A stretch of DNA of 34,733 nucleotides from a virus, in IMG/VR virus record IMGVR_UViG_3300035034_000344, positions 1 to 34,733 of that record; one strand, written 5' to 3'. The number at the start of each line of letters is the position of its first letter. Positions within the stretch are counted from its first letter, which is position 1. A model generated the notes under the pieces. It worked only from the letters and a program-made list of their open reading frames with translations, was not told the DNA's origin and made no database searches. Below are positions 613 to 33,692 of the stretch, piece by piece. The position numbers and the translations under genes were made by a program.

Positions 613-627
613 ATATTTATAATAAAG
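613..627 (+). promoter_or_regulatory. Late-promoter-like motif upstream of sheath gene
   Basis: ATATTTATAATAAAG lies 42 bp before the sheath ATG. It is one of nine related ATATTTAT...TAAA motifs found in front of virion genes in this window and is nearly identical to the one at 6917-6930. The leader that follows is very A-rich. The promoter role is inferred from recurrence and position. Confidence 0.45.
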
Positions 628-669
628 AAAACTATAAAGTAAATAACATAAAACAAAAAAAAGAAAACT

Positions 670-3513
670 ATGCCGAACAAAGTATTTGTGAGTCCAGGAG
701 TATATACTTCAGAGAAAGACTTATCGTTCATAACACGTCAAGTTGGTGTTACAACATTGGGATTAGTTGGTGAAACAACTATAGGACCAGCGTTTCAACC
801 AATATTCGTAGGTAACTACGGTGAATTCACATCTTTCTTTGGTGGTCAAAATGCCACTAAAATAAAGGATAATGGAGCACCAAAATATGAGTTACCATAT
901 ATTGCTAAATCATATTTAACACAATCTAACCAATTATTCGTAACAAGAGTATTAGGTTTTTCTGGGTTTCATGCTGGTAAAGGATGGGGTCTTACATTGG
1001 ATGCTGCTTTAGATACCTCAACAACTGGTATTACATCAACAACTAATATTAACCCATTAATTTCATATACTGCAACATCTGCAAATACAAATGTTACACT
1101 TGTTAGTACTGATGTATTAATGCAAACATTAATTGATGAAGGATTATTAACTGCATCTTTAGCTACGTTATCAACGTTAGCAACTGGTGGTACTTTATCA
1201 GTGTCTAGAACATTCACTAAATCTGGTGATGTATTTAGTGGTCTATCAACTACTTTATATGTAACAGCTACTGGTAATGATGTAAGTGGTGCCTTTATTA
1301 CTGGTACAACTTCTGGTGTATCTTTACATTGTTCTGGTTCTGGTTATTCAGACGTAGAAAATAAAGTGGTTGCTTTATTACGTTCTAGAGGTTCTGTAGA
1401 TGTATCAACACAATTACCTTCATTTGAGGTGACTGGTGCTACTGGTATTACATTTGACCCAAGTTTAACTGGTTCTATAACTGATGTTGATGGTAACTTT
1501 GGATTAACTGGTGTTTCAACAACACAAGGTAATTTTAATTACCAATTATCTTTAGATAAAACAAAACAAAATTATTTAACAAGAGCGTTAGGTAGAGGTG
1601 CACAAGATGGTAACACTGCCTTATATGTTGAGGAATTCTACAATAAAATGTTTGAATCATTGGTTGCTGCTAACAAAGTTAGAGGTATTAATCAAGTAAC
1701 TGTTGATTATAATGAGGAATACGATGATTATTTAGCACAATACCAACCAGCGGTAACACCTTATGTTGTTTCTGAATTACGTGGTACTAAAGTGTTGAAA
1801 TTGTTCAGATTTTGGACAATATCTGATGGTAATGCTGCAAATGAGCAATTCAAAATATCAATCAGAAATATTAAATTAGATACTAAAGAATTTGATGTAG
1901 TAGTTAGGTCTTACGCAGATACAGATGCACAACCAGTAGTGTTGGAGTCATTCTCTAAATGTAGTTTAAACCCAACATCAAATAATTTTATTTCTAGACG
2001 TATTGGTACTTTAGATGGTGAATATCCTTCAAAATCTTCATTCATATTAATTGAATTAGATGATACTTCTGATATTTCTGATGCTTTCCCATCTGGGTTC
2101 GTTGGAGTTCCAGTAAGAGATTATCAAGCAAATAGTAATACTACTGTTGTTGACCCTAAATTGACATATAAAACAGAATATGGTGCTTTTGAAAATAAAC
2201 GTAAATTCTATTTAGGTTTATCTGAAACTGTAGGTATTGATTCTGATTTCTTTGACTATAAAGGTATACCTTCAAGTGGTTCATTAGATTTATGGACTGG
2301 TATGACACATGGATTCCATATGGATGTTGATGCTAGTGCTGCGACTATTGATAATGTAACTATTGCATATGATACTAACGGTAATACTTATGTACCAAAT
2401 TATTCATTTGACGTTGGTGATGCTACTTTCAGAACTGAAGCTGGTGTTGTTGGTGGACCATATGAAAAAATATATGCACGTAAATTTACATTCGCACCTT
2501 ATGGTGGATTTGATGGATGGGATATTTATAGAAGTAGAAGAAGTAATTTAGATTCATTCTTAATAAATGGTGTTAATGGTTCTTCTGGTTTACTTAGTGG
2601 TGCATTCTCAAATAAAACTTTATCAAACGGTGATATAGGTATTAATTCTGATTACTACGCTTATTTAGAGGCTATTTGGACATTTAGAAACCCAGAAGCT
2701 GTAAATATTAATGTATTTGCAACACCAGGTATCGATAATGTAGATAACTCTAACTTAATTGAAGGTGCTATCGATATGATTGAACAAGATAGAGCAGATT
2801 CATTATACATAATGACTACTCCAGATACTGATGGTGGTGGTGCTATAAGAACATCTGAAGATATCGCTGATACTTTAGACGGATTATTCGATAGTAATTA
2901 CTCTTGTACTTACTGGCCATGGATTCAAGTAAATGATACTGAAAATAATGTATATATCTACATGCCACCTACACGTGACGTAGTTAGAAATATAGCATTA
3001 ACTGATAACATTTCATTCCCTTGGTTCGCAGTAGCTGGTGTACAGAGAGGTGATGTTGATGCGATTCAAGCAAGAAAGGTACTTACTTTAGAAGAGAGAG
3101 ATACTTTATATGAAGCTAGAATCAACCCAATTGCTACATTCACAACGGATGGTGTTAAGATTTGGGGTAATAAAACACTTCAAGTTAAAGATACTGCTCT
3201 TAATAGAATTAACGTTAGACGTTTACTATTACAAGCAAGAAAATTAATTTCTGCTGTTTCAATCAGATTATTATTTGAACAAAATGATTCAGTAGTAAGA
3301 AATCAATTCTTATCACTTGTAAACCCAATATTGGATAACATTAGAAGTCAAAGAGGTTTAACAGATTTCCGTGTGGTTCTTTCAAACGACCCAGAAGACT
3401 TCGATAGAAACCAATTAACTGGACAAATTTTCTTAAAGCCAACAAGAGCTTTAGAATTTATTCAATTAGAATTCGTAATCATGAATACTGGTGCATCTTT
3501 TGATAACATCTAA
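670..3513 (+). CDS. Contractile tail sheath protein (T4 gp18-like)
   Basis: This 947-residue protein forms the contractile sheath around the tail tube. The N-terminus (VFVSPGVYTSEKDLS) has the sheath hallmark of an SPGVY segment followed by a conserved T-x-G-L-V-G-E-T-x-x-G-P-A strand. The C-terminal part, with runs such as RINVRRLLLQARKLISAVS, then a residue-800s helix-rich region ending in RALEFIQLEFVIMNTGASF, matches the conserved sheath core that links neighbouring subunits. It is much longer than T4 gp18 (659 aa). Much of the extra length is a Ser/Thr/Gly-rich beta-type insert at roughly residues 110-230, probably surface-exposed. The gene is followed by its own terminator, and a tail tube gene lies one gene downstream, as in other myoviruses. 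Start: the ATG follows a long A-rich leader; a longer out-of-frame ORF across the start is not credible. Confidence 0.93.
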   Translation: MPNKVFVSPGVYTSEKDLSFITRQVGVTTLGLVGETTIGPAFQPIFVGNYGEFTSFFGGQNATKIKDNGAPKYELPYIAKSYLTQSNQLFVTRVLGFSGFHAGKGWGLTLDAALDTSTTGITSTTNINPLISYTATSANTNVTLVSTDVLMQTLIDEGLLTASLATLSTLATGGTLSVSRTFTKSGDVFSGLSTTLYVTATGNDVSGAFITGTTSGVSLHCSGSGYSDVENKVVALLRSRGSVDVSTQLPSFEVTGATGITFDPSLTGSITDVDGNFGLTGVSTTQGNFNYQLSLDKTKQNYLTRALGRGAQDGNTALYVEEFYNKMFESLVAANKVRGINQVTVDYNEEYDDYLAQYQPAVTPYVVSELRGTKVLKLFRFWTISDGNAANEQFKISIRNIKLDTKEFDVVVRSYADTDAQPVVLESFSKCSLNPTSNNFISRRIGTLDGEYPSKSSFILIELDDTSDISDAFPSGFVGVPVRDYQANSNTTVVDPKLTYKTEYGAFENKRKFYLGLSETVGIDSDFFDYKGIPSSGSLDLWTGMTHGFHMDVDASAATIDNVTIAYDTNGNTYVPNYSFDVGDATFRTEAGVVGGPYEKIYARKFTFAPYGGFDGWDIYRSRRSNLDSFLINGVNGSSGLLSGAFSNKTLSNGDIGINSDYYAYLEAIWTFRNPEAVNINVFATPGIDNVDNSNLIEGAIDMIEQDRADSLYIMTTPDTDGGGAIRTSEDIADTLDGLFDSNYSCTYWPWIQVNDTENNVYIYMPPTRDVVRNIALTDNISFPWFAVAGVQRGDVDAIQARKVLTLEERDTLYEARINPIATFTTDGVKIWGNKTLQVKDTALNRINVRRLLLQARKLISAVSIRLLFEQNDSVVRNQFLSLVNPILDNIRSQRGLTDFRVVLSNDPEDFDRNQLTGQIFLKPTRALEFIQLEFVIMNTGASFDNI

Positions 3514-3535
3514 ACGATTATAAACTTAAACAATT

Positions 3536-3563
3536 AAACCTTCGAATTTTCGAGGGTTTTTTT
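3536..3563 (+). terminator. Rho-independent terminator after sheath gene
   Basis: AACC-TCGA pairs with TCGA-GGTT around a short AT loop, with single-base bulges, and is followed by seven T residues. It lies 23 bp after the sheath stop and should isolate sheath transcription from the next gene. Confidence 0.75.
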
Positions 3564-3573
3564 GTTTTAATAG

Positions 3574-3590
3574 ATATTTATTAGTAAAAG
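3574..3590 (+). promoter_or_regulatory. Late-promoter-like motif
   Basis: ATATTTATTAGTAAAAG sits between the sheath terminator and the ATG at 3594, only 3 bp before the start codon. If it is a -10-type element the transcript would have little or no leader. It belongs to the recurrent ATATTTAT...TAAA set. Confidence 0.4.
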
Positions 3591-3593
3591 AAA

Positions 3594-3983
3594 ATGATAA
3601 AGTTAATTATAACGGAAAATCAATATAAGTCTATATTATTATTTGAGGAAAAAGAAAAAGAATTTAGTAACTCAAACGATATTTTATTAGGTTTTGCAAA
3701 AGTGATGGGATTAAAGCTGACTGGTCAAAATGAGAATATAGCAAACAATGCTGTTAAGAATAAATCTATTATGAACTCAATCAAAAATGCGTTAGAACAT
3801 CCTAAAAAAAGAGAAGAATTTATTGAGGATTTAACTAATAAAGGTATGATTGATGTATCTAATAAATTATTACATAAAACTGATAGGATAGCTGATAATT
3901 TTAATAGATATTCAAAAGAGAATAATTTAGGTTATAAATTAGATATGTTAAATGTAGCTAATAAAATGCTTAAAGATAAATAA
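3594..3983 (+). CDS. Small protein with KLIITE N-terminal signature, possible virion component
   Basis: This is a 129-residue, Lys/Asn-rich, mostly helical protein that I do not recognise. Its N-terminus MIKLIITENQYKSILLFEE closely resembles that of the 479-residue protein at 6943 (MNKKLIITEAQYSKL...LLLEG). Both have K-L-I-I-T-E, then x-Q-Y, then a Leu-rich helix ending in LxE. T4 internal head proteins and Alt carry short N-terminal capsid-targeting sequences that gp21 protease cuts after [LI]-x-E, and both ITE and LFE here fit that rule. The body is polar with no membrane segment. It lies between sheath and tube with its own upstream motif but no clear terminator. A virion or tail-assembly role is inferred from context and signature. 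Confidence 0.6.
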   Translation: MIKLIITENQYKSILLFEEKEKEFSNSNDILLGFAKVMGLKLTGQNENIANNAVKNKSIMNSIKNALEHPKKREEFIEDLTNKGMIDVSNKLLHKTDRIADNFNRYSKENNLGYKLDMLNVANKMLKDK

Positions 3984-4017: not shown

Positions 4018-4036
4018 ATATTTATATATAAATAAA
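4018..4036 (+). promoter_or_regulatory. Late-promoter-like motif upstream of tail tube gene
   Basis: ATATTTAT runs directly into TATAAATA (4027-4034), which equals the T4 late promoter -10 consensus, then AAA. It lies 25 bp before the tube ATG, with an A-rich leader between. This is the best match in the window to a classical T4-type late promoter, although one such octamer is not rare in AT-rich DNA. Confidence 0.5.
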
Positions 4037-4061: not shown

Positions 4062-4550
4062 ATGTCTGATTTATTAATGAAAATGCCATTACCATACGAA
4101 CCTAAGAAAAAGAATCGTTGGTTAATTACTTTCCCAGCAGATTTAGGTATCCAACAATGGTGGTTATCTTCTGCATCTAGACCTTCAATTACACAAAATG
4201 AAGTTGAGATTCCTTTCTTAAACACTTCTACATGGGTAATAGGTAGATTTACTTGGGAAGCTATTGATGTAACGTTTAGAGACCCAATTGGACCATCTGC
4301 TGCACAAGCAATTATGGAGTGGGTTCGTTTACATTCAGAATCAATTACGGGTCGTCAAGGTTATGCTGCTGGTTATAAACGTCCAGTTGAATTAGAAATG
4401 CTTGACCCTACTGGAGTTGTTATTGAGAAATGGTTACTAGATGGTACAATGTTAACAAATGTTGGATTCGGTGACTTATCTATGGATGATGATGGTATCG
4501 CTGAAATCACAGCTACTATGAGATTCGATAGAGCTATATTATTATTCTAA
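4062..4550 (+). CDS. Tail tube protein (T4 gp19-like)
   Basis: At 162 residues this matches the length of T4 gp19 (163 aa), the subunit that stacks as hexameric rings to form the inner tail tube. The sequence is beta-rich with the tube-family layout: an N-terminal arm (PLPYEPKKKNRWLITFP), then alternating strands including SASRPSI and EVEIPFLNTSTWVIG, a conserved strand with an aromatic (GRFTWEAIDVTFRDP), an amphipathic helix (SAAQAIMEWVRLHS) and a C-terminal strand pair (EITATMRFDRAIL). It lies two genes after the sheath gene with its own motif and terminator, as expected for a gene expressed at very high late levels. The ATG follows an A-rich, SD-less leader. Confidence 0.93.
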   Translation: MSDLLMKMPLPYEPKKKNRWLITFPADLGIQQWWLSSASRPSITQNEVEIPFLNTSTWVIGRFTWEAIDVTFRDPIGPSAAQAIMEWVRLHSESITGRQGYAAGYKRPVELEMLDPTGVVIEKWLLDGTMLTNVGFGDLSMDDDGIAEITATMRFDRAILLF

Positions 4551-4604: not shown

Positions 4605-4619
4605 ATATTTATAAATAAA
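4605..4619 (+). promoter_or_regulatory. Late-promoter-like motif
   Basis: ATATTTATAAATAAA, which contains TATAAATA, starts 12 bp after the terminator and ends 6 bp before the ATG at 4626. It belongs to the recurrent set. Confidence 0.45.
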
Positions 4620-4625: not shown

Positions 4626-5207
4626 ATGAGAAGATTTGATAAAAAAAAGAATTTAGCTAAAGTTAATTTATTAACGGAGCAAAGATATCTTCAATCTAAA
4701 GGTTTGGTTACTGAAAATCTAACAACTGAAGATGGTTTAGTAGCACAGATAAATGATGCTTTTAAAAAAATAGAAAACGGTACACCAAATAATGAAACTG
4801 GTATTGGAGCATTATTAACAAATTTAAAAGATGTTAACCCAGAAAAACATTCATCTATGATTGAAAAATATAGGGAGGTTGCAAGTTTAAATGAAGATTA
4901 TAAATTTACTGATTTAAAATATATAACATTTGTTTGTGATGGTGTAGCGTATGGTGTTGGTGAATTAAAAAATAAAGAAGAATCTTCAAATGGTGTTACA
5001 TATACTTTTGGTTTGGATAAGTATAATGGTAATGATAAGGTTGCTGTTGGTGGTCAAATTATTTATCAATTAGATAAAGAAAACCCACAAGAATCTAAGT
5101 TGTTCATTAATTCAAATTATCATGGATTAAAAGATATTAAAACGAAGGTTGAAGATGGTGAGGAAGTATTTAACAAAATGACTGAATATATTCAACATAA
5201 TCCTTAA
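4626..5207 (+). CDS. Unrecognised protein with LLTE signature, possible virion component
   Basis: This is a 193-residue hydrophilic protein of no family I recognise. After a strongly basic start (MRRFDKKKNLAK) it has VNLLTEQRYLQSKGLVTEN, a variant of the [IL]-[IL]-T-E-x-x-Y-x-x-L signature seen at the start of the 3594 and 6943 products. The middle (about residues 25-80) is polar and helical. The C-terminal half is beta-rich with alternating Tyr/Gly/Asn (YITFVCDGVAYGVGELK, VAVGGQIIYQL), suggesting a small compact domain. It forms its own transcription unit, with a motif upstream and a terminator downstream, between the tail tube gene and the chaperone-like gene. A minor virion protein or tail-assembly factor is a reasonable inference, but the function is unknown. 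Confidence 0.6.
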   Translation: MRRFDKKKNLAKVNLLTEQRYLQSKGLVTENLTTEDGLVAQINDAFKKIENGTPNNETGIGALLTNLKDVNPEKHSSMIEKYREVASLNEDYKFTDLKYITFVCDGVAYGVGELKNKEESSNGVTYTFGLDKYNGNDKVAVGGQIIYQLDKENPQESKLFINSNYHGLKDIKTKVEDGEEVFNKMTEYIQHNP

Positions 5208-5290: not shown

Positions 5291-5305
5291 ATATTTATTT
5301 ATAAA
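5291..5305 (+). promoter_or_regulatory. Late-promoter-like motif
   Basis: ATATTTATTTATAAA, in an almost pure A/T stretch, ends 28 bp before the ATG at 5334. It belongs to the recurrent set. Confidence 0.4.
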
Positions 5306-5333: not shown

Positions 5334-6617
5334 ATGAGTGAAAAACCAAAAGTATTCCCTACTAATGTAAATGTAGGTTCGAATGAAGTTAATTTAACGG
5401 AGCAACAAAAAATAGATGCATTCAATGCTGAAAAAAAAGCTGCTACGAAAGAAATATATGTTAGTGCATCAACACCAGAGGATACACCACAAGAACATAT
5501 GACGGCTGTTGAGCAAATGCAAAAGAGGACGGCAGAACAAATATTAACTCGTGACACTAAAGGTGTTGTTAAACATCCAGAATTAGCTGAAAAAGGTGCT
5601 TCAAAAGTCTTTAAACAACCTTCAGCTGAGATAATTGAGGAGCAAATGAGATTACGTGATGAACAATTACGTAAAAATAAAGAGGATACAAGAAGATATC
5701 ATGAGCAAAGTGAGGCATCAATGTCTCAATTAAATAACCCAGTTAAAAATATTTATGAAATGGATAATACTAATCAAGTACCAGTTACACCACCACCAGT
5801 TACACCACCAGTTAATAATGGTGATAATCATGGTAAGAGTCCTTCTAATGTAAACCCATACATATTGGAGATAAGTCAACCAAACTATAATGCACCGTTT
5901 GACGTTATTCCATTACCTTCTGAAGGTAAAGTGTACAGAAATAGAAAAGCTAACATTAGAGTTGCTTATATGACCACTGCTGATGAAAATATACTTACTT
6001 CCCCAAATTTATTAGAGAGTGGTGAGTTTTTAGAGATTCTTATTAATCGAAAAATTTTGGAACCAGAGTTAAGATATAAAGATTTAACGATTGGTGATAG
6101 AAATGCTATAATGATTTGGTTGAGAGCTACTGGTTATGGAGAGATGTATCCTATAACTCTTTTAGATGAGTTGGATGAACCTTTTGAGACAGAGGTTAAT
6201 CTTAATGATTTAAAAACAAAAAATTTAGGAGTTGAACCAGATGAAAATGGATATTTTGATTTTTTATTACCTATTACTAAAAACCAAATTAAATTTAAAT
6301 TATTAACATGTGGTGATGTTGATACTATAGAATACATGGTTGATAATGATACGGCAAAAGATAAAATAGTTAATAACTCAACAACATATAGATTAGAAGC
6401 TATGGTTGTTGAAGTTAATGGTGATAAAAATAGAAGTAATATTAGGGAATTCGTTAATTCGATGAGAATTGGTGATGCTAAAGCATTCAACACTTATTAT
6501 ACTGAGGTTGAAAGTGGTATTGATTTAAATATCAATATTGGGACTCCAGGGGGAGGGTCCATTAGTACATTTCTTCCACTTAACTTCAACTTTTTTTGGC
6601 CTAACTATAGAGTATAA
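5334..6617 (+). CDS. T4 gp26-like baseplate hub / tail assembly chaperone-type protein
   Basis: This 427-residue protein has a long low-complexity, charged N-terminal half (residues 1-180; Glu/Lys/Gln-rich helices, then a Pro-rich VTPPPVTPP linker). A conserved domain follows, resembling the T4_baseplate (gp26) family: IPLPSEGKVY, then an R/K-rich strand with YMTTADENILTSPNLLESG, the LINRKI segment, DLTIGDRNAIMIWLRATGYG, and a second strand set with LPITKNQIKFKLLTCGDVD. It ends in ...TPGGGSISTFLPLNFNFFWP, a C-terminus I associate with this family. Placed between tail tube and tape measure, it occupies the slot of the tail assembly chaperone. A second ORF in the +1 frame overlaps its last 89 bases and continues 259 bases further, so a frameshifted longer product is possible. 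The N-terminal half is longer than in T4 gp26. Confidence 0.75.
   Translation: MSEKPKVFPTNVNVGSNEVNLTEQQKIDAFNAEKKAATKEIYVSASTPEDTPQEHMTAVEQMQKRTAEQILTRDTKGVVKHPELAEKGASKVFKQPSAEIIEEQMRLRDEQLRKNKEDTRRYHEQSEASMSQLNNPVKNIYEMDNTNQVPVTPPPVTPPVNNGDNHGKSPSNVNPYILEISQPNYNAPFDVIPLPSEGKVYRNRKANIRVAYMTTADENILTSPNLLESGEFLEILINRKILEPELRYKDLTIGDRNAIMIWLRATGYGEMYPITLLDELDEPFETEVNLNDLKTKNLGVEPDENGYFDFLLPITKNQIKFKLLTCGDVDTIEYMVDNDTAKDKIVNNSTTYRLEAMVVEVNGDKNRSNIREFVNSMRIGDAKAFNTYYTEVESGIDLNINIGTPGGGSISTFLPLNFNFFWPNYRV
6541..6560 (+). other. GC-rich hairpin with G5 run inside the chaperone-like gene
   Basis: In strongly AT-rich DNA this 20-bp stretch is mostly G/C. GGACTC can pair with GGGTCC (one T-G wobble), leaving a loop with five consecutive G residues (6549-6553). 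It lies inside the 89-base window where the zero frame and +1 frame are both open, so it could act as a slippery site or a pausing structure. It also encodes the TPGGGS segment, so protein-level selection may be the whole explanation. Confidence 0.4.
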
Positions 6618-6916: not shown

Positions 6917-6930
6917 ATATTTATAATAAA
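6917..6930 (+). promoter_or_regulatory. Late-promoter-like motif
   Basis: ATATTTATAATAAA, identical in its 14 bases to the sheath motif at 613-626, ends 12 bp before the ATG at 6943. It is the likely promoter for the 479-residue protein and the tape measure gene, which has no motif of its own. Confidence 0.5.
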
Positions 6931-6942: not shown

Positions 6943-8382
6943 ATGAATAAAAAACTAATAATAACAGAAGCACAATATAGTAAACTAAGAGGACTTTTGT
7001 TAGAAGGTTCTTTCAGTGAGGTAATTACTGATGCGATAAAAGGTGATACAATAAAGATAGATTGGAAAAATAATGTATTAAATTTTAATGTGTTAGATTC
7101 TATAAATGGTCAAATATTAATGGATAATATTGATACTGGTGTTTATAAAAATTATAGATTTGGTATTACATCAACATCTCTAGTTGATGATAAATTAAAT
7201 ATTTCATTTTTACATAAAAATAAAATTTCAGATACCAACAAGATGGATATTGGTGAGATTATTAAGGATGGTAAAAAACAAACTTGGGACGTTAATTCTA
7301 TTGAATTATTTAGAAATAATAAAGAAGTAGATTCAACTGGTAATCTTAAAGATAATCAAGATGGTCAAGAATATGAGATTTCAGAAAATTTAATTACAAG
7401 TATTGATGAAACGTTATATATGCTTTTATCAAAAGTTAAAACTGGTAACGGTATTAAATTTATAACAACTGAAGGTGATATAGATTTTTGTTGTTATGAT
7501 GTATCAAATGGAGTTTATGTAACTCAGATAATTTCCGATGAAACTAATAAACTTAAGGGTGATACGTTTGTATTTAAAATTAATGGTGATTTAAGTGATG
7601 ATGAAGCTGAAGATTCTTTATATGAATTAAATAAAAAAAACTGGTACAGTTCAAACAATAAATTTTTAACCGTAAGTGTAGAAGTTAGAAGTTCACAGAG
7701 GAGTAAAGTTATTAATTTAACAAACATTAAAGATATTGAATATATTAAAACATGTGAAGATGTTGATGAACCAGAAGAAGAGTCAGAAAAAGATTACACC
7801 AACGATGATGAAAAACGTAAGGAAGCTGTTGAGGTGACTGTTGAGATGTTAGCTAAAGATAAAACATTACAAGCTGCGTTTTATACTCAACCAAATTTTT
7901 GGCAACTATTAAGGGTTGAACTTGAGGGTGGTAAAGCTGTTGGTACTGGAATTGTACCAACATTAAATTTAGTTGGTAGGTATGCTGATAAATCAATATC
8001 TGATAGATTAGGTGATAATTTTAGTGTTGGTGGTAAAGTTTCATTTGAACCTCAAGAATCAGTATCTATAAGATATTATAATAAGAAAGGTGAACCAACA
8101 GATTTTATACTTAAATCTGGTGAAATATATGAAGGTGATTATGCTGTAACAGTTAAAAGGTTTAGTTTTGATGATGATTTAACTCAAAAAAATAAAGTTT
8201 TACAAAATGGTTCTATGGGTTTCAAAATAATAGTAAAGGAATCAACCGACCAAGAGAATATATTTTTGTGTGATATAATTAAAATATATTATATAGAAAA
8301 TACAAGTAAATCATCTACAGAAGAAAATATTTATATTAGACTTTTAGATTCACAAGGTTATAACACAAAAGAAAGAAAATAA
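6943..8382 (+). CDS. Large unrecognised protein with KLIITE N-terminal signature, ahead of tape measure
   Basis: This 479-residue protein matches no family I recognise. Its N-terminus MNKKLIITEAQYSKLRGLLL, then EG, shares the KLIITE-x-QY signature with the 129-residue protein at 3594 and contains two [LI]-x-E sites (ITE, LLE) of the kind cut by T4 prohead protease. Residues about 25-270 are beta-rich with many Asp/Asn/Lys. An acidic linker (EDVDEPEEESEKDY) follows. The C-terminal 200 residues begin with a helix (KRKEAVEVTVEMLAKDKTLQ), include TQPNFWQLLRVELEGGK, and continue as strands. It is co-transcribed with the tape measure gene, 9 bp downstream, and probably has a tail role or is a protein carried inside the particle. 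This is inference from position and signature only. Confidence 0.65.
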   Translation: MNKKLIITEAQYSKLRGLLLEGSFSEVITDAIKGDTIKIDWKNNVLNFNVLDSINGQILMDNIDTGVYKNYRFGITSTSLVDDKLNISFLHKNKISDTNKMDIGEIIKDGKKQTWDVNSIELFRNNKEVDSTGNLKDNQDGQEYEISENLITSIDETLYMLLSKVKTGNGIKFITTEGDIDFCCYDVSNGVYVTQIISDETNKLKGDTFVFKINGDLSDDEAEDSLYELNKKNWYSSNNKFLTVSVEVRSSQRSKVINLTNIKDIEYIKTCEDVDEPEEESEKDYTNDDEKRKEAVEVTVEMLAKDKTLQAAFYTQPNFWQLLRVELEGGKAVGTGIVPTLNLVGRYADKSISDRLGDNFSVGGKVSFEPQESVSIRYYNKKGEPTDFILKSGEIYEGDYAVTVKRFSFDDDLTQKNKVLQNGSMGFKIIVKESTDQENIFLCDIIKIYYIENTSKSSTEENIYIRLLDSQGYNTKERK

Positions 8383-10915: not shown

Positions 10916-10946
10916 TTGACAATGTACGATTAAAATAGTACTTTTG
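10916..10946 (+). promoter_or_regulatory. Host-type (Bacteroidota sigma) promoter in the 10.9-kb spacer
   Basis: TTGAC at 10916, a 20-bp gap after TTG, then TACTTTTG (10939-10946) fit the Bacteroidota primary sigma consensus TTG-N~19-TAnnTTTG. The same -7 octamer and spacing occur at 21956-21986. The predicted transcript start is near 10951-10955. No gene starts until 11150, so it drives either a short RNA ending at the 11059 terminator or, by readthrough, the baseplate genes. Confidence 0.65.
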
Positions 10947-11006: not shown

Positions 11007-11058
11007 ATATATATGATAGTTAATTTTAACAATTTTATATTTATCGTTTTTTTAAAAT

Positions 11059-11124: not shown

Positions 11125-11144
11125 GTATTTATATATAAATAAAG
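11125..11144 (+). promoter_or_regulatory. Late-promoter-like motif upstream of the 1445-aa baseplate gene
   Basis: GTATTTAT followed by TATAAATA (11134-11141) and AAG ends 6 bp before the ATG at 11150. It is almost the same as the tail tube motif at 4018-4036. A weaker relative (ATTTATTTTAGTAAA) lies just upstream near 11096-11110. Confidence 0.5.
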
Positions 11145-11149: not shown

Positions 11150-14100
11150 ATGGCAATTTTTTATAACACAGCACTACCATCACCATCAACTAAAAATACT
11201 ATAAATAGTGTTACGGTTGATTATGGTATTAGGGATTTTTTATTGAATTTAAATATTCATGATTTATATCCACAATTATCAACATCGATAAATGGTAGTC
11301 CAAGAGTAGGTGAACCAGTATTAGATACAATGTTACCCAACTCAAGTGTTGTAACACCTAATGGTTTACCCTTAGAGATTAATGGTATATTATGGAAAGA
11401 TATAAATACTTCAACGAATACATTTCAAAACCTATCATCAACAAATAATGATTTAAAGTCAGTTGATTTTATTGGTACTATTGGTAATAGTGATTTTATA
11501 GGTGCTTCAGTAATGGTAGGTACATATGATTATCCAACTAATTCTGAATCTGAGTATATTAATAATTATGGTATATTAACTAAAACAAGTACTGCTTCAT
11601 TCAAGAAAGATAATGTTATTAAAAATCTATATTTAGATGTTGATAAACAAATTGATGCTTCTTCTTTATTTGATTACTCACCACCAGATATAAGTCAACA
11701 AACAAAAGGTTATTTAGATACCTACGGTAATTTAAATCTAGGTGGTTCACAAACTGTTGAAGCTGCTAATGTAATTGGAAGTATTTTTAGTGGTCAAGGA
11801 TTAGGTTTAGCAAAAGGTGGTATAGTCACAAACTTCGATGTAAGAGCTTCTTTAGCTGGAAGGGTACTTGGAGCTACTGGATTAATAAATGATACCAAAT
11901 TAGGTCTTATAGGTGGTCAACAACTAGCTTTAGCTTTAGCAAATAACGCTGCATTTAATATTCAACAAGACTTACTAGGTAAACTTAACATTAAAGACAA
12001 CATATTAAGTATCGTTAAAAACGGTACCACAGTCGGTTTAAGACCAGATTATAAGATTACGGTAGCAAATGATGGTTTAGGTAGAGTAGCTGATTACACG
12101 GCAAGTATATTAGGATTCACGTTACCAAAAAGTTATTTGAGTGAAGATGGGTCCATTTTTGCTAGTGAGAACGGAAATGTAGATAATATAACTAGAGCTA
12201 ATTCAATGTTAGTTAATACTGGTAATGGACAAATTGCCGCATTGATTGCAAATGTCAAATCAAATTTAGATGGTACTGGTGAATATGATAATCCATCTAC
12301 TCCATCTTCATTATTTAGGAGTGGTTACGCTGCTGGATATCAGACAGTATCTAAAGACCCTAACAACCCAGATGAAGCCTCAACACCAATAAAAGGTAAT
12401 GTTTACGCTTATAGTACTGATAATAAGATAGATGTTTTAGGTTCAGCTGATGGTATAATACCTAATTTAAGTTATAATAGACTAGAAAAAACAGTAACAT
12501 CTGGATTTAAAGGTTTAGATGATTTATACTTGGAACCAACCACTTATTTAACTAACCATATAAAAAGAAAAGATTTCAGTTGGGGTGCAACTGAAGGTGG
12601 TAGGGTTAATTCAGATGCAGCTGGTGTTGACCAATACTCTGAATACTATACTGATGCCTATAGACCAGTTACTGGAGATAAGAAAAGTCTTTTAACTAAA
12701 ACTCAACAACTATTTAATAGTGAGGGTATGTTAAATATTGTATCTAGAGAAGGTGATATAGGTTTATATGGTAGTCAAATACAAACCGTTAACGGTGGTG
12801 GTATATCCAAAGGTAGTGCTGTATTAAGTGAAAGTGTTTACAATACAAATACTGGTACCGTTGCTAAAGGTTTCGACCAACCAGAGAATACATATTGTAG
12901 AGCTTGGACAACAAAGAATAGATATGACAGCATTCAAAAACTAATTAGAAACGATGGTTTATATTCTAAAGATGGAAAAAAAGTTCCTTATAGAAATATT
13001 ACAGATAATTCAGTATTAGAAGATACTGGATATGTTAAGATAGCACCATATAAAACAGATTTTGCTGATGGTGCAATTAAAAATTATATGTTTTCAATTG
13101 AAAACTTAGCTTGGGCTGACAACGTAACAGATTTACCTAAAGTTGAACAAGGGGCTGGTGATAGATTATCTGGTAAAAGAGGTCGTGTAATGTGGTTTCC
13201 TCCATATAATATTCAATTTAGTGAGTCAACAAATGTAGACTGGGAAACAAATAAGTTTATCGGTAGAGGTGAGAATATGTACACTTACAATAATACTGAA
13301 AGAACTGGCCAATTATCATTTCAAATTATTGTTGACCACCCTAGTTACGCAAATACATTTAGAGGTTCTTTAGCTTCTGGTGGTCCAGAGGATAATTATG
13401 TTGCATCATTTTTTGCTGGGTGTATTGAACCAGATAGTGTTTGGACAGATAAATTAACGGCATCACAATCTAGTGATTTAGTTTCAAATACTATAACTAC
13501 ACCACAAAAGAAAGTTGCACCTAAACCAGAAACACCACCAGACCCAATAAAAATTTATTATCCTAATGATAATGAAAATCTTCCAGATACATATGAAAAT
13601 GGTTTAAGTGGTTCAACCACAGCAAATAAAATTGATTATTCTGTTTATATTAGTCCTAGTTATTCTGGAGAAGGTTTTGGTTTAGGTTCTTACCCATCCA
13701 ACTTTACTCCAGGTGTTCATAACGATGGTAAAGGTGATGATACTTGGCCAGATAGAAATAATTACGGTCTAAATTATAATGGACCATATACAAAAGAAAG
13801 TAAAGTAGGTGATGAGAGTTATAAAGGATATTTAAATAGTAATTATATTATTGAATTATCTTTATATATAAAAGATAAATGTCCAAACTGCCTAATTGAG
13901 GTTACTGGATATGCTAGTCCACAAGGTTCAGCAACTTATAATCAAAAACTAGCAGATGCTAGGGCTGATTTAGCTATAACTGGTATTAAACTTAAACTTA
14001 AAGCAACGACAAACTTAAGTAATGAAAAAGTAGATTCAATGTTTATAAAAAAACCATCTAAACCTATATCTCAATCGGAGTCTAAATGTGCTGTATGTCC

Positions 14101-21962: not shown

Positions 21963-21986
21963 ATTAAAAAATTATTAGTACTTTTG
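21956..21986 (+). promoter_or_regulatory. Host-type promoter overlapping end of hub gene
   Basis: TTG (21956-21958, inside the hub's last codons), a 20-bp gap, and TACTTTTG (21979-21986) repeat the -7 octamer and spacing of the promoter at 10916. The ATG at 21991 starts 5 bp after the -7 element, so the transcript would begin at or within a few bases of the start codon, giving a leaderless mRNA. Confidence 0.65.
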
Positions 21987-21990
21987 TTAT

Positions 21991-22629
21991 ATGAAAATAG
22001 GTAACATAGTTTCAAGTATTGATGTTAAAATATCAAACGAATTTAATTTGGTTAAAAATATGGATGAAATTATCCAAGGTTTACCAACATTAATAGTTGG
22101 TTTTGACTACGTTAATAAAAATTATCCAGATTTTAATATCTTAGATAAAGAGATTGAACCTAACATTTATTGGACTTTTAAACGAACAGAAAAACGTGAT
22201 AAATTTGAGGAAGATTTATATTGGTTCAAACAAAAAGTATATGATGATTTATTTAAACAAATAGTTTATATATTCGTTGACCCAATATATTATAGGGGTT
22301 ATGTTATGATTAAATTGTTAAGAAAAATTATAAATATTGAAAATAAATATAGTTTGATGTATAATAATATGATTTATATTTATGGTGATAATTTTATTTT
22401 TGGTTTTGATTTAAACCTTTTAAGGTTCCTTAAATTAGATGTTAATAAAATAAAAAATAAAATTAAGTCAGTAAGCACTGTGTTTTTGGATGATGAGAAG
22501 ATACTTATAGAATATAAAAACAATATTGAAGAACTAAATGATAGAGTTCGATTTATACCTTATTTATTTTCTATTAATAATGAACAAAAATATACTTCTA
22601 GCTTCATTCATATTCCCAGAGAGAGTTGA
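21991..22629 (+). CDS. Unrecognised 212-aa protein, probably non-structural
   Basis: This is a soluble-looking protein rich in Ile, Lys, Asn and Tyr. Notable blocks are MKIGNIVSSIDVKISNEFN, GLPTLIVGFDYV, YPDFNILDKEI, YWTFKRTEKRDKFEEDLYWF and VYIFVDPIYYRGYVMIK. The layout (a strand-turn IVGFDYV, then WTF and a charged ExDLxxF helix) looks like a compact alpha/beta domain; I cannot name the family. No membrane segment or signal peptide is evident. It is read from a host-type promoter rather than the ATATTTAT motif, suggesting earlier expression than its structural neighbours. Its last 50 bp overlap the next gene, so the two are probably made together and may form a complex. Confidence 0.7.
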   Translation: MKIGNIVSSIDVKISNEFNLVKNMDEIIQGLPTLIVGFDYVNKNYPDFNILDKEIEPNIYWTFKRTEKRDKFEEDLYWFKQKVYDDLFKQIVYIFVDPIYYRGYVMIKLLRKIINIENKYSLMYNNMIYIYGDNFIFGFDLNLLRFLKLDVNKIKNKIKSVSTVFLDDEKILIEYKNNIEELNDRVRFIPYLFSINNEQKYTSSFIHIPRES

Positions 22630-22990: not shown

Positions 22991-23007
22991 ATATTTATAA
23001 CTATATA
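22991..23007 (+). promoter_or_regulatory. Late-promoter-like motif
   Basis: ATATTTATAACTATATA ends 22 bp before the ATG at 23030. It diverges in its second half (TATA in place of TAAA) but keeps ATATTTAT and its place ahead of a probable virion gene pair. Confidence 0.35.
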
Positions 23008-23987: not shown

Positions 23988-24018
23988 TTGCATTATGGTT
24001 ATTAAGATAGTATATTTG
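23988..24018 (+). promoter_or_regulatory. Host-type promoter P1 upstream of SSB gene
   Basis: TTG (23988-23990), a 20-bp gap, and TATATTTG (24011-24018) match TTG-N~19-TAnnTTTG. The start would be near 24023, giving a 140-base leader for the SSB mRNA. Confidence 0.65.
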
Positions 24019-24164: not shown

Positions 24165-25079
24165 ATGAGTAAAGAAAAATCAGCATTAGATGCAATGTTA
24201 GAACAGTATGAGAAAAATAACGCTCCTAGGTTCGAAAAGAAAAGTGATAAAGTATATGATTTAGCTAACTATTTCAATACCTATATCGAGAAGGAAATCA
24301 AATCAGCAACAAAAGAAATCAGAATTTTACCATCACCAGACGGTTCTCCATTTGTAGAATTACATGGTCACAAAATCCAATTAGATGGTCAGTGGAAAAC
24401 TTTCCCATGTTTAAAACATATGAAAGATGAAGCATGTCCATTCTGTGAGGCTCGTGAGGCTTTATTAGCTACTGGTGAAGCTTCTGATAAAGAACTAGCG
24501 AAGAAATACAATGCACGTAAAATGTATGTAGTTAAAGTAATCGATAGAAATGCTGAAGAAGAAGGTGTTAAGTTTTGGAGATTTAACCATGATTATCGTA
24601 AAGAAGGAATTTTTGATAAGATTCATGGTGTATTAACAGCACTTAAAACTAATAGAAACGTTACAGACACTGAAAGTGGACGTGATTTAGCTATTAACAT
24701 TCAAAGAAACCAAAATGGTATTCCAGTTGTTTCTTCAATTGTTTCACAAGATTCTGGATTATTAACCGATGACTCTGTTAAAAAAGAAGAATGGTTAAAT
24801 GATGTTAGAACTTGGGAAGATGTTTATTCTATCAGAACTTACGATTATTTAAAAATCGTAGTAAAAGGTGGTTTTCCAATTTGGGATAAAGATGAAAATG
24901 GCTTTGTTGATAGAGATGCTGAGAAAGAAGTTTCACCAGAGGAAGACGAAATTACTATGGGTATTGATAACGTAAAATCTAACATTCAAGCTTCTACAAC
25001 TACAGAAGGTTCAACAACAGATTCTAAATTAGAAGAAAAAAAAGATTCTAAAGAAGATGATGATGATTTACCATTCTAA
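24165..25079 (+). CDS. Single-stranded DNA-binding protein (T4 gp32-like)
   Basis: At 304 residues it is close to T4 gp32 (301 aa). A zinc-site pattern is visible: H69, C82, C91 and C94 (C-L-K-H-M-K-D-E-A-C-P-F-C), with the T4-like spacing H-x12-C-x8-C-x2-C. A basic, cooperative-binding N-terminus comes first, then the strand-rich OB region (KEIRILPSPDGSPFVELHGHK; FWRFNHDYRKEG). The C-terminus is a long acidic tail ending DDDDLPF, the usual contact for recombinase, helicase and polymerase partners. It coats single-stranded DNA during replication and recombination and neighbours UvsX. Two tandem host-type promoters precede it and a terminator follows, which fits high early expression with partial readthrough into uvsX. 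Confidence 0.92.
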   Translation: MSKEKSALDAMLEQYEKNNAPRFEKKSDKVYDLANYFNTYIEKEIKSATKEIRILPSPDGSPFVELHGHKIQLDGQWKTFPCLKHMKDEACPFCEAREALLATGEASDKELAKKYNARKMYVVKVIDRNAEEEGVKFWRFNHDYRKEGIFDKIHGVLTALKTNRNVTDTESGRDLAINIQRNQNGIPVVSSIVSQDSGLLTDDSVKKEEWLNDVRTWEDVYSIRTYDYLKIVVKGGFPIWDKDENGFVDRDAEKEVSPEEDEITMGIDNVKSNIQASTTTEGSTTDSKLEEKKDSKEDDDDLPF

Positions 25080-27906: not shown

Positions 27907-30438
27907 ATGGCAAAAATAGATAAAAATAGTTTAGGTTTCTTAGGGTATGACTACCAATTACGATTAGTTGCACAAATATTAACAGATAAAAGATTTGCAA
28001 ATAACATATTGGACATCCTAAATCCTAACTACTTTGAAGACCCATATCTAAGAGTTGTTGCCGCTACGATAAAAGAAGCTAAAGATAAAGACGATGTTGT
28101 TCCAGATATGGGCAGCATCGAATTTAGATTATTGGAGGATGCTAAGGATGATGTACGACAAAAATACATAATAGCACAACTTCGTCAGATAAAAGAAGCT
28201 GATTTAAATGATACCGAAAAGGTTCAGAAAATTGCAATGACTTTTTGTAAGCAACAAGAAATGAAGAGGTCAGTATCTGAGATTACTAAAATTATAAATA
28301 AAGGTAACTTAGAAGATTATGAGCAATGCGAAACTATACTTAGAAAAGCTTTAGAACATGGTGACAATAGAGATGATGGTTTAGATATATTTGATGATAT
28401 AGCATCTGTTTTAGAGGAAGACTTCAGAAAACCAATTAGAACTGGTATAGAAGGTTTAGATGATGTAATGGATGGTGGTTTATCTAAGACTGAATTAGCA
28501 ACTATATTAGCACCATTTGGTGTTGGTAAAGCACAACCGTTAAAATCTAAGATTCTAACACCAAACGGATGGGTTACTATGGGTGATATTAGTATTGGTG
28601 ATGAAGTAATTGGTCGTGATGGTAAAAAAATTAAAGTTATTGGTGTTTTCCCACAAGGTATTAGACCAATATATAAAGTAAAATTTAATGACAATACTGA
28701 AACGTTATGTGATGAAGAACATTTATGGTCTGTAAATACCATTAACCAAAGAAATAGAAAAACTAAGAAAAATGGTACAACTATTCGTTTAGAGTCTGAT
28801 GATTCATATAAAACAATGAAAACGATTGACATGATTGGTAATGTTAAAGTATGGGGTAATAGAAGATTAAACTATAAAGTACCAATGGTGTCACCAGTTG
28901 AATTTAATAAAAATGAATTAATTATTGACCCATATTTATTAGGTATTATTCTAGGTGACGGGTGTATTACTAAATCTAATCAACCACATTTTGTTACTAA
29001 AGATGAATCAATTATAACAGATATTTCTAAAATATATGATAATATATTAATATCAGAACAAGTTAGAGAGTTTGAGGTCGAGAAAGATGGTGATTTAGTT
29101 TTAGTTACTCGTTCATTAAAAAAGGTTTCACTATTAGGTATTAAACCAAGTTTGGAGAGTTTAAATCTATATGGTTGTGGTTCAGAAACTAAATTTATAC
29201 CTAATGAATATTTATTCTCATCAATTGATGATAGGGTAAGTCTTTTACAAGGTTTAATTGATTCAGATGGGTATATCGATAAACATAGAATTGAAATAGT
29301 AACAGTATCTGAACAAATGAGTAAAGAAATTAAAGAATTGGTTATGTCATTAGGTGGTACTTGTAATATATCAAGTAAAATTGGTTCATATAAAAAAATA
29401 GATGGTACTAAAATAAAATGTAAAAAAGCTTATAGAATTTATTTTAGTTTTCCAGAATCAATTAATTTTAATTTATCTAGGTTAGAACGAAAATTAGATA
29501 AGTTAAAGTTAAGGGATAAATACTCATCAAATAAATTTATTTCTTCTATAGAATATTATGGTAAAGAAGAAGCTAAATGCATCATGGTTGATAGTCCAGA
29601 ACATTTATATGTTACTGATGATTATATAGTTACACACAACACAACGATGATGACCAAATTTGCTAATACTGCTATGAATGATGGTAACAATGTCTTACAA
29701 ATATTTTTTGAAGATAACCCAAAGGTAATTCAACGAAAACATTTATCATGTTGGTCTGGATATGATTTGAATAGTTTATCCCTACATAAAGAAGAGATAC
29801 AAACTATGGCTGAAGACATGAAAAAAAATAGTAAGGGTCAATTGAAACTTAAAAAATTCTCTAGTGATGGTACAACAATTCCAATGATTAAACAATACAT
29901 TAGAAAAAAAATAGCTGGAGGTTTTAGACCAGATTTAATATTATTAGACTATATTGACTGTGTAACTCCATCGAAAAAATTTGATGATGTAAATGCTGGT
30001 GAAGGTAGTGTTATGAGAGAGTTTGAAGCTATGTTATCTGAACTAGATATGGCTGGTTGGACGGCAATTCAAGGTAATAGAAGCTCAATTAAAGCTGAGG
30101 TAGTTGAAGCAGACCAAATGGGTGGTTCAATTAAGAAAGCACAAATAGCTCATTTTGTTCTATCTGTAGCTAAGACTTTAGACCAAAAAGAAGCTGGAAC
30201 AGCAACAATTGCTATTCTTAAATCACGTTTTGGTAAGTCTGGTATTATATTCGAAGATATAACATTCGATAATGGTACTATACAAATAGATATGGGTAAA
30301 AGTGTTGGTGGTAAAACTCACTCCCAACATAAGGTACAAAAAGGTGTTAATGACCAATTAAGAGTAAATGATATACTTTCGGGTGTTGACAAAAGAAAAG
30401 AGGTTTTAAATGGGTTGACAGTACCAACCGACAAATAA
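27907..30438 (+). CDS. Replicative DnaB-like helicase (T4 gp41-like) with intein
   Basis: The 843-residue precursor is a helicase of about 473 residues (T4 gp41 is 475) interrupted by a 370-residue intein. Exteins: an N-terminal domain with the DnaB-type helical bundle (residues 1-150), a linker, then RTGIEGLDDVMDGGLSKTEL and the Walker A strand APFGVGK | T. After the intein come TMMTKFANTAMNDG, the Walker B region RPDLILLDYIDCV, a RecA-like AIQGNRSS and a KAQIAHFVLSVAKTL strand. The intein separates Lys and Thr of Walker A, so no ATP site exists before splicing. The spliced helicase unwinds the replication fork. It lies in the SSB-UvsX-flap nuclease cluster and leads into nrdB-nrdA. No promoter is visible directly upstream. 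Confidence 0.9.
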   Translation: MAKIDKNSLGFLGYDYQLRLVAQILTDKRFANNILDILNPNYFEDPYLRVVAATIKEAKDKDDVVPDMGSIEFRLLEDAKDDVRQKYIIAQLRQIKEADLNDTEKVQKIAMTFCKQQEMKRSVSEITKIINKGNLEDYEQCETILRKALEHGDNRDDGLDIFDDIASVLEEDFRKPIRTGIEGLDDVMDGGLSKTELATILAPFGVGKAQPLKSKILTPNGWVTMGDISIGDEVIGRDGKKIKVIGVFPQGIRPIYKVKFNDNTETLCDEEHLWSVNTINQRNRKTKKNGTTIRLESDDSYKTMKTIDMIGNVKVWGNRRLNYKVPMVSPVEFNKNELIIDPYLLGIILGDGCITKSNQPHFVTKDESIITDISKIYDNILISEQVREFEVEKDGDLVLVTRSLKKVSLLGIKPSLESLNLYGCGSETKFIPNEYLFSSIDDRVSLLQGLIDSDGYIDKHRIEIVTVSEQMSKEIKELVMSLGGTCNISSKIGSYKKIDGTKIKCKKAYRIYFSFPESINFNLSRLERKLDKLKLRDKYSSNKFISSIEYYGKEEAKCIMVDSPEHLYVTDDYIVTHNTTMMTKFANTAMNDGNNVLQIFFEDNPKVIQRKHLSCWSGYDLNSLSLHKEEIQTMAEDMKKNSKGQLKLKKFSSDGTTIPMIKQYIRKKIAGGFRPDLILLDYIDCVTPSKKFDDVNAGEGSVMREFEAMLSELDMAGWTAIQGNRSSIKAEVVEADQMGGSIKKAQIAHFVLSVAKTLDQKEAGTATIAILKSRFGKSGIIFEDITFDNGTIQIDMGKSVGGKTHSQHKVQKGVNDQLRVNDILSGVDKRKEVLNGLTVPTDK
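28531..29640 (+). mobile_element. 370-aa intein with LAGLIDADG homing endonuclease in helicase gene
   Basis: The insert starts at Ala209, directly after GVGK, and ends with THN before Thr, so splicing gives GVGK-TTMM. Block A is AQPLKSKILTPNGWVTMGDI, with Ala as residue 1, then IGDEV. The block B His is in DEEHLWSV (precursor residue 272). Two LAGLIDADG motifs appear: LLGIILGDGC (Asp near residue 351) and LLQGLIDSDGY (Asp near 454), about 103 residues apart. Blocks F and G give SPEHLYVTDDYIVTHN, with the +1 nucleophile Thr. Ala at position 1 means it probably uses the pathway that attacks the N-terminal peptide bond directly (class-2-like). The complete endonuclease motifs suggest it can still home into intein-free helicase genes. 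Confidence 0.93.
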
Positions 30439-30460
30439 CAATTAAAAAACAATTAAAATT

Positions 30461-31414: not shown

Positions 31415-31432
31415 TTAAAAATATAAGACATT

Positions 31433-33589
31433 ATGAGAATACAAAAAAGAGACAAATCAACACAAGCATTTACACCCAATAAAATATTGACTAGGATTAA
31501 AACCCAAGCCAAAGGTTTAAATGTTGACTGTGATATCTTATTTCAAGAGGTTATTCCCTTGATTAATGATAATATAACAACAACTGAAATTGATGAGATT
31601 ATTGCATTTAAATCTGCTGATAAGATTATTCAACATTCACACTATTCATTATTGGGTGGTAGAATATTACTGTCAAGACAATCAAAATTAATTGGTAGAG
31701 AATTACAACCAGTTGATTTAACATATGATTTCTTTGCAGCTACAACTTTTTTAACTAAATATTCGTTAAAAGATAATACTAAAGCACCAACTGAGTTACC
31801 TTCATGTATGTACAATCGTGTATCTAATTTTTTACATGATGACAATGAAGCTGACCGCTTAGAATTATTAGATGAACTTTCCTTAAAGAAAGGTAATTTT
31901 GCTACACCAACATATACAAATGCTGGTGTCCCAGAAAGAAATGGGATGATTTCTTGTAATCTTACACACTTGGAAGATGATTCATTTGAAGGTATTGAGA
32001 ATACTCTTACTAAGATAGCTTCGGCATCTAAAGAAGGTTCTGGTATCGGATTATTAATCGACCCTCTTAGAAGTAAGGATAGTATAGTACAATCGTTTAA
32101 AGGAAATGCTGGTGGTGTTGTAAGATTAGCTGACATGGTTCAATCTAAGATGAGATTTTATAAACAAGGTTCTCGTTCTGGTAGTTGTGCTTTATACTTA
32201 TCGGTTTGGCATCGTGATATATTTGACTTCTTACATTTAACATTACCAATTGGTGATGAGCAATTAAGAACTAGAGATTTATTCACATCCGTAATTATAA
32301 ATGATTTATTCATGGAAAAATTAAAAGCAGATGAACCATGGTATACTTTCTGTCCAAACGATATTAAGAAAAATGGGTTAAGACCATTTCATGATTTACA
32401 TGGTGAAGAATTTGTTGCTGAATATAATAAGGCTGTTGATTTAGGTATAGGTAAGGCTGTGAGTCCAAAAGATATATTTGATTCAATTATAAAATCTCAA
32501 GTAGAGAGTGGTAAACCATATGTTATGTTCAAGGACAATGCTAATAAACGTAATATGCAAAAAAATATAGGTGTTGTTAAACAATCTAATTTATGTATAG
32601 AAATTATTCAAGCATCTAAACCTAAATACACACCACAATGTACTTTGGCTTCAGTTAATTTATCTGAACACACTAATTTGGAATCAATTGCTAAAACAAC
32701 TAAAATTTTAGTTAAAGCGTTGAATAAAGTTATCGATAAAAACAAATGGTCTGACGATTGGAGTGAGGTTGCTGGAATGGACCAAAGAGCCTTAGCTATT
32801 GGTGTTGCTGGAATGGCTGACTTCTTCGCTAAGAATAAAATATCATACGAATCAGAAGAAGCTAAACAATGGAATAAAGATATCACTGAAACAATGTATA
32901 AATCTGCTATTGAAGAATCAATGAGATTAGCAATTGAAAAAGGTGAAAATTATCCAGCATGGGAAGGTAGTCCATATTCAAAAGGTGAAACTTATATTGA
33001 AGGTTGGTCACCATTACCAGAAGGAGAACCAATTCCTTTATTAAATAGTTTATTACTAGGTCTTATGCCAACAGCTTCTTCGGCTATTTTATTAGGTGTA
33101 TTTGAATCATTTGAACCAGTTACCTCTAATTTATTTACTAGACGTGTTGGACAAGGTGAGTTCTTAGTAGTTAATAAATATATGGTTGAAGAATTAATTC
33201 AAAATGGTCTTTGGGATGCAAAATTAATTGAAAAGGTTAAGAAAAATAAAGGTAGTATTCAAACAATTACCGAAATTCCTTCAGACATTAGATTCCGTTA
33301 TAAAGATGTTTGGGAAATACCACAAAGAGTATTGTTAGATTTGGCAATTATTAGAAATAAATATGTTGACCAGTCACAATCTTTAAATATTTATCATGCA
33401 GATGCTAAATACGGTAAAATAGCCTCAGCGTTAATGTATGCTTGGAAAGGTGGTTTAAAAACTGGTGTTTATTATACTAGAACTAAATCTAAATTAGAAA
33501 CTAACACTAAACTAGCTAGTAATGCTGTGATTGAAGAGGTTGAAAAACCAAAAGATTCACCATTTGACTGTTTTGGTTGTTCAGCTTAA
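31433..33589 (+). CDS. nrdA: Class I ribonucleotide reductase large subunit
   Basis: This 718-residue protein reduces ribonucleotides with NrdB. Residues 1-85 form an ATP-cone (RIQKRDKSTQAFTPNKIL onward), suggesting allosteric control is kept. Active-site residues: C175 (GMISCNLTHL), N386, C388 and E390 (SNLCIE), and C403 (PQCTLASVNL). The Tyr pair of the radical path is in GVYYTRTKS. The C-terminus carries the CFGC pair (C713, C716) that is re-reduced by thioredoxin or glutaredoxin. The length is slightly below E. coli NrdA (761 aa). It directly follows nrdB, as in many phages (order B then A), and closes the DNA-metabolism unit with a strong terminator downstream. Confidence 0.95.
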   Translation: MRIQKRDKSTQAFTPNKILTRIKTQAKGLNVDCDILFQEVIPLINDNITTTEIDEIIAFKSADKIIQHSHYSLLGGRILLSRQSKLIGRELQPVDLTYDFFAATTFLTKYSLKDNTKAPTELPSCMYNRVSNFLHDDNEADRLELLDELSLKKGNFATPTYTNAGVPERNGMISCNLTHLEDDSFEGIENTLTKIASASKEGSGIGLLIDPLRSKDSIVQSFKGNAGGVVRLADMVQSKMRFYKQGSRSGSCALYLSVWHRDIFDFLHLTLPIGDEQLRTRDLFTSVIINDLFMEKLKADEPWYTFCPNDIKKNGLRPFHDLHGEEFVAEYNKAVDLGIGKAVSPKDIFDSIIKSQVESGKPYVMFKDNANKRNMQKNIGVVKQSNLCIEIIQASKPKYTPQCTLASVNLSEHTNLESIAKTTKILVKALNKVIDKNKWSDDWSEVAGMDQRALAIGVAGMADFFAKNKISYESEEAKQWNKDITETMYKSAIEESMRLAIEKGENYPAWEGSPYSKGETYIEGWSPLPEGEPIPLLNSLLLGLMPTASSAILLGVFESFEPVTSNLFTRRVGQGEFLVVNKYMVEELIQNGLWDAKLIEKVKKNKGSIQTITEIPSDIRFRYKDVWEIPQRVLLDLAIIRNKYVDQSQSLNIYHADAKYGKIASALMYAWKGGLKTGVYYTRTKSKLETNTKLASNAVIEEVEKPKDSPFDCFGCSA

Positions 33590-33612
33590 AATATAATATA
33601 ATACAATATAAT

Positions 33613-33639
33613 AAAGGGGTTTAACGACCCCTTTTTTTT
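33613..33639 (+). terminator. Rho-independent terminator after nrdA
   Basis: AAAGGGGT pairs with ACCCCTTT (perfect 8 bp) around TTAACG and is followed by a T run. It is the only terminator seen after the one at 25100, so it probably ends the replication/nucleotide transcript. Confidence 0.85.
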
Positions 33640-33675
33640 ATTTACCATATTTACTTATAAAAATAATTTATTATT

Positions 33676-33692
33676 ATATTTATCTAATAAAG
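33676..33692 (+). promoter_or_regulatory. Late-promoter-like motif upstream of gp25-like gene
   Basis: ATATTTATCTAATAAAG ends 6 bp before the ATG at 33699 and matches the set found upstream of the sheath and other virion genes. It restarts structural transcription after the RNR genes. Confidence 0.45.

Follow-up and report, generated by a model that had tools for sequence, protein, structure and literature searches.

The window analysed here is a 34,733-nt fragment of a viral genome (IMG/VR record IMGVR_UViG_3300035034_000344) with a G+C content of 29.5%. PHROG profiles recognized T4-like contractile tail genes (sheath, tube, hub and gp25) as well as a replication/RNR cluster of SSB, UvsX, nuclease, helicase, NrdB and NrdA genes, whose order is the same as in Flavobacterium phage immuto. 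The tail sheath gene (670–3513; phrog_23, E 1.3e-59), the tail tube gene (4062–4550; phrog_4542, E 1.8e-25), the gp25-like baseplate wedge gene (33699–34085; phrog_261, E 2.4e-19) and the SSB gene that opens the replication/RNR cluster (24165–25079; phrog_1192, E 1.7e-10) all lie on the plus strand. A search for Rfam elements found none. The DnaB-like helicase (27907–30438) carries an intein-like insert at approximately residues 210–578, which interrupts the Walker A motif and ends in VTHN before T; a 482-aa helicase of the relative G003 could be aligned on both of its flanks.

A search of viral contigs with the tube protein gave at least 549 related stretches, on contigs of up to 368 kb. The contigs searched include near-duplicates, and the best 80 of these matches were 95–100% identical. 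Three large relatives of 306–368 kb (G001, G002 and G003) were fetched for comparison, and their ORFs were called with a simple home-made script that gives approximate starts.

An 8-mer, ATATTTAT, termed here the class A box, recurs upstream of the tail genes. All nine sites listed in an earlier sequence-only reading of the window were present on the plus strand, eight of them exactly ATATTTAT and the one at 11125 the variant GTATTTAT. The boxes precede the tail sheath gene (box at 613–620, ATG at 670), ORF 3594–3983 (3574–3581, 20 nt from box start to ATG, with the T-tract GTTTTTT upstream), the tail tube gene (4018–4025, ATG at 4062), ORF 4626–5207 (4605–4612, immediately after a terminator-like hairpin with a T-run), a baseplate-hub-like gene (5291–5298, ATG at 5334), ORF 6943–8382 (6917–6924), a 1445-aa ORF (11125–11132, ATG at 11150), the gene pair 23030/23212 (22991–22998) and the gp25-like wedge gene (33676–33683, ATG at 33699). 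As the same reading had held, no box was found ahead of the SSB, UvsX, nuclease, helicase or RNR genes. Of the eight exact sites, the one at 22991 lacks the TAAA it described; at the other seven, and at 11125, it follows within 1–4 bases. Its spacing of 3–42 nt to the ATG became 20–57 nt when measured from the box start and 12–49 nt from the box end, a difference that arises because the value depends on the chosen end of the element. An additional plus-strand copy at 11037–11044, missing from the earlier list, is probably not a functional promoter because the next ATG is 113 nt away and a terminator-like hairpin follows the copy.

The spacers of the window (1692 nt) contained nine copies of ATATTTAT in the forward direction, on the gene strand, and none in reverse. 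Dinucleotide shuffling of these spacers yielded a mean of 1.2 copies, with 0 of 1000 shuffles reaching nine or more. Within genes (∼32 kb) we counted 10 forward and 7 reverse copies, which are background. Motif discovery against a composition-matched background had been suggested as a check, and ATATTTAT exceeded expectation both in the window and in the three relatives, where 48–92 copies compared with 6–8 expected. Blind 8-mer discovery upstream of genes ranked it first in G002 and G003 and fourth in G001. Ahead of the tube gene, 78 of 79 related loci with divergent flanks also retain the box within the preceding 90 nt; after dereplication it was present in 17 of 18 loci, the remaining one having GTATTTAT. 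The motif is thus real.

The same blind discovery returned TAnnTTTG words, defining a second class (B) of the form TTG-N17-21-TAnnTTTG with the TTG approximately 20 nt upstream of the box. This form matches the published consensus of the Bacteroidota sigma-A promoter (PMC7366714), and class B is that promoter; the hosts are therefore most likely Bacteroidota. Three class B promoters were located on the plus strand of the window: TTGAC...TACTTTTG (10939–10946), TTG...TACTTTTG (21979–21986) and TTG...TATATTTG (24011–24018), the last upstream of the SSB gene (ATG at 24165). At the second of these the box start lies exactly 12 nt before the ATG at 21991, making the gene leaderless, and this layout recurs in the G003 ortholog. 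Class A shares the 12-nt register of the Bacteroidota promoter (TTTG at −33, TAnnTTTG at −7) but does not have its form: the terminal G of the box is missing, a T-tract 13–17 nt upstream takes the place of the TTG, and TTG occurred at a frequency of 0.29 at class A sites as against 0.73. The virion genes are thus preceded by a promoter-like element, as claimed before, and it is distinct from the promoter of the replication genes.

Genes carrying both classes were rarer than expected in all three relatives (7, 17 and 4 observed versus 21, 34 and 23 expected), demonstrating mutual avoidance. Among orthologs that were 57–70% identical, 94 pairs were A-A, 67 were B-B and one had swapped, counts that are pooled over three genome pairs not independent of each other. 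Promoter class is inherited gene by gene. Functions were assigned by PHROG scans of ∼60 G003 genes, only a minority of which had a family of known function. Class A preceded the terminase (TerL), prohead protease, sheath, tube, tail fibre, gp25 and endolysin genes, whereas class B preceded DNA polymerase, SSB, primase, exonuclease, RNA ligase, tRNA nucleotidyltransferase, sigma and other genes. The ratio of virion, packaging or lysis genes to DNA, RNA or transcription genes was 7:2 in class A and 1:10 in class B (Fisher p 0.0045), a split that, with so few functions assignable from PHROG families, rests on ∼20 genes. Class A thus stands ahead of virion genes with few exceptions. The non-virion genes under class A were a DnaB-like helicase, an HNH nuclease and PhoH, of which PhoH falls outside both categories counted in the Fisher test. 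This gene content suggests that class A genes would be expressed late. When a third motif was sought among genes with neither class, mostly tRNA T-arm words (GGGTTCGA) were returned. Enrichment of these words in the spacers of G001–G003 suggests that the large relatives carry many phage tRNA genes.

Alignment of 198 class A sites on the box (positions 0–7) revealed a T-tract spanning −17 to −13 relative to the box start, present at 0.73–0.76 of class A sites versus ∼0.2, and A-rich positions 12–14. Measured from the box start, the ATG lay most often at 20–27 nt, with a separate spike at 12 nt exactly; class B boxes displayed the same spike. Several of the leaderless genes, with the ATG at 12, retain the layout in orthologs, and a G002 protein that shares its N-terminus with window ORF 6943–8382 is also leaderless, its ATG standing 12 nt downstream of the box start. 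Mapped transcription starts of Flavobacterium psychrophilum place TAnnTTTG at −12 to −5 (PMC9723704). An ATG at 12 nt combined with this published position would make the ATG the first transcribed base, and we infer a transcription start 12 nt downstream of the first box position. Leaderless late genes offer a clean case: their start codon coincides with the predicted transcription start. As positions 12–14 are A-rich and hold the ATG in leaderless genes, the TAAA is best read as the putative transcription start or leader. The suggestion that the element is partly palindromic did not hold up: reverse copies are rare, the T-tract is on one side and the A-rich start on the other, and the distance to the ATG is fixed. 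The box is directional, and the palindrome does not belong to the signal.

The tight distance to the ATG, with its peak at 20–27 nt, could be expected of an element in translation initiation or the mRNA leader, and Shine-Dalgarno sites are absent from Bacteroidota mRNAs. However, the box tends to be absent where the host-type promoter is present and has a phased T-tract upstream, and in leaderless genes it stands 12 nt before the ATG, the register also seen for the host box. Moreover, phage Mel-JY01 retains the box at a distance of typically ∼40–48 nt from the ATG, with GGAG in the leader. These features speak for a promoter element and against a ribosome site, and we consider a role in translation or in the leader very improbable.

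The T4 late octamer is TATAAATA, located at −13 to −6 (PMC1524935), and the sequence-only reading had noted that some sites continue into it. Indeed TATAAATA follows some boxes (4027, 4610 and 11134), but these are very few, and away from the box it numbered 7, 16 and 6 in the three relatives compared with 7.0, 9.8 and 7.5 expected from shuffling. It was rejected as a true signal on these counts, and for the same reason the element is filed outside the T4 type by sequence. That the box reflects chance in AT-rich DNA, or the T4 octamer read on either strand, is hardly credible: the spacers are very AT-rich and the reverse complement of TATAAATA is found inside ATATTTATA, but chance is contradicted by the outcome of shuffling, by the bias to one strand and by the phasing of the flanks, and the near-expected frequency of TATAAATA contradicts the octamer. 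The predicted recognition sequence differs from the known T4 one. Giant phages of a widespread group almost certainly use ATATTTAT as their late-gene promoter signal.

The window, a 34.7-kb fragment, contains no sigma gene. A gp55-like sigma gene, which the sequence-only reading had proposed looking for elsewhere in the genome, was found in the relatives: phrog_234 matched a 242-aa protein in all three (E 1.3e-4 to 0.01), whose orthologs are 80–88% identical. A profile of 40 such proteins had gene 55 as its only match in the whole T4 genome (E 0.0015), and hhalign against T4 gp55 gave E 0.001, pointing to remote homology. The profile also had a single clear match each in immuto, Mel-JY01 and LR756508; in immuto and Mel-JY01 the protein is annotated as hypothetical. 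No match was found to phrog_12791, another late-sigma family, or by a PDB sequence search with the gp55-like protein. An AlphaFold model of middling confidence (pLDDT 74) aligned with sigma region 2 of sigma-E (4lup; Z 9.2, 91 residues, 2.9 Å) and with T4 gp55 (7d7c_F; Z 8.7), and nearly all structure matches listed were sigma factors. The protein as modelled has the fold of sigma region 2.

Sigma factors of the gp55 type lack region 4 and have a short C-terminal tail. The protein described here is longer than T4 gp55 (242 versus 185 aa) and has a helical C-terminal part that T4 gp55 does not have. No clear case emerged for assigning this part to sigma region 4: whole-model alignments spanned it, but modelled alone it had no clear match. 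Some gp55-like genes are longer still (G008:C1:113599-114528, L176:4043-4996 and L177:2025-2978), and in the 318-aa G008 frame the match is split after approximately residue 39, as if by an insert of ∼65–75 residues.

G001, G002 and G003 each also encode two conserved sigma-A-like proteins with regions 1.2, 2 and 4, and such a primary-sigma-like pair beside a gp55-like sigma in one phage is unusual. In G003 the pair is encoded at L122:7999-8871 and L116:16521-17342, with orthologs in G001 and G002. Region 2.4 of sigma-2 is unusual, reading WWVRKLMME versus WWVKQSIIQ in sigma-1. One of these duplicated and diverged primary sigmas might read the late promoter in a cascade resembling the one in Bacillus phage SPO1. 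Besides the conservation of both proteins and their domains, this would fit the class B promoter upstream of the sigma-2 gene in G002 and G003, the T of TAnnTTTG that class A boxes lack, and the loss (by eye) from sigma-2 region 2.4 of the glutamine that in E. coli sigma70 contacts position −12. We nevertheless regard it as unlikely, since phmmer found no sigma-A-like protein in immuto or Mel-JY01, and both have the same box and a gp55-like protein. In immuto, [AC]TATTTAT boxes precede the terminase, sheath, tube and hub genes, and in Mel-JY01 the tube gene along with further genes for head and tail; Mel-JY01 further differs from the large relatives in its long leaders with GGAG.

Among 80 gp55-like loci ATATTTAT was the top 8-mer, with 170 copies versus 20 expected. 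LR756508 encodes the protein, but the box is not enriched in 240 kb of its sequence; a gp55-like protein therefore does not guarantee this box, and the association is good but not strict. Since immuto and Mel-JY01 carry the box and no sigma-A-like protein was detected in either, the gp55-like protein is probably the best candidate reader, an assignment based on co-occurrence and remote homology. A phage sigma factor with a related but altered site had been anticipated; the gp55-like sigma of the relatives agrees with this, while the supposed tie to the T4 octamer was not borne out. A host alternative sigma, for instance of the ECF type, is a poor candidate to which we give very little weight. 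Bacteroidota possess several, and minor promoter motifs other than the sigma-A one occur in F. psychrophilum (PMC9723704), but those motifs (TAnnTTGY and CGT) differ from the box, which tracks the phage lineage rather than one host group, occurring in a Flavobacterium phage and in one whose deposited record states Microcystis as its host.

Taken together, we consider it likely that the late promoter is read by a phage gp55-like sigma on the RNA polymerase of a Bacteroidota host, with replication genes on sigma-A. ATATTTAT would form the core box (−12 to −5). The gp55-like sigma would reprogram host polymerase to bind the box together with the T-tract 13–17 nt upstream, and RNA would start 12 nt downstream of the box's first base; the resulting leaders would be very short, ∼8–45 nt in the window and 0 in leaderless genes. 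Replication and nucleotide-metabolism genes would stay on the host sigma-A promoter, TTG-N17-21-TAnnTTTG. A more specific version, in which the gp55-like protein reads T-tract and ATATTTAT without a clamp, through DNA- or polymerase-contacting surfaces of its own C-terminal part and within a cascade with the two sigma-A copies, is put forward tentatively and is itself rather doubtful.

The element thus appears to work like a T4 late promoter without being a member by sequence. Both have an AT-only 8-mer at −10 ahead of virion genes and a phage-encoded gp55-type sigma, but the box here is ATATTTAT and not TATAAATA, and class A has a phased T-tract where T4-type late promoters have no second upstream element. 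T4-type late promoters require the sliding clamp gp45 and the co-activator gp33. Neither phrog_223, scanned in five relatives, nor a phmmer search with T4 gp45 that covered the big relatives and immuto detected a gp45 clamp, although a diverged one could escape detection. A gp44-like clamp loader is present in Mel-JY01. Aeromonas phage Aeh1 sets a precedent, with a diverged gp55 accompanying a changed late box, CTAAATA (PMC1524935), although that box is still near the T4 octamer and ATATTTAT is not. The present case would illustrate drift of a gp55-type system away from TATAAATA. Literature searches found nothing on late promoters in Flavobacterium phages, and nothing relevant on ATATTTAT as a phage promoter among the matches listed, which were mostly chance matches.

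With the two promoter classes, early and late genes could be mapped in a large group of giant Bacteroidota phages, most of them uncultured, and a conserved 'hypothetical protein' can be named as their likely late sigma factor. The proposal is testable in an isolated phage, immuto. Immuto (L154, L153) has no TAnnTTTG promoters at all and an enriched early-type word, TTTAGGTATCAATAAT; it encodes DNA 7-deazaguanine modification genes, and a link between modified G and its promoter is conceivable. In Rhodothermus phage RM378 (L158) a profile search gave no gp55-like match, and a different word, TATTTAA/TTTAAATA, was enriched ahead of genes in the neighbourhood of the tail genes.

Several proteins have a similar N-terminal peptide (MKxxIKQLLREAL or MxxKLIITEAQ), including the products of window ORFs 3594 and 6943 and of G003_209, G003_211 and G003_223, among others. 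The peptide holds an (L/I)xE(A/G)-like site of the sort that the T4 prohead protease cleaves, and it is possible that these peptides are capsid-targeting tags. Their excess was clear only in G003, at 16 of 332 versus ∼1% in internal windows.
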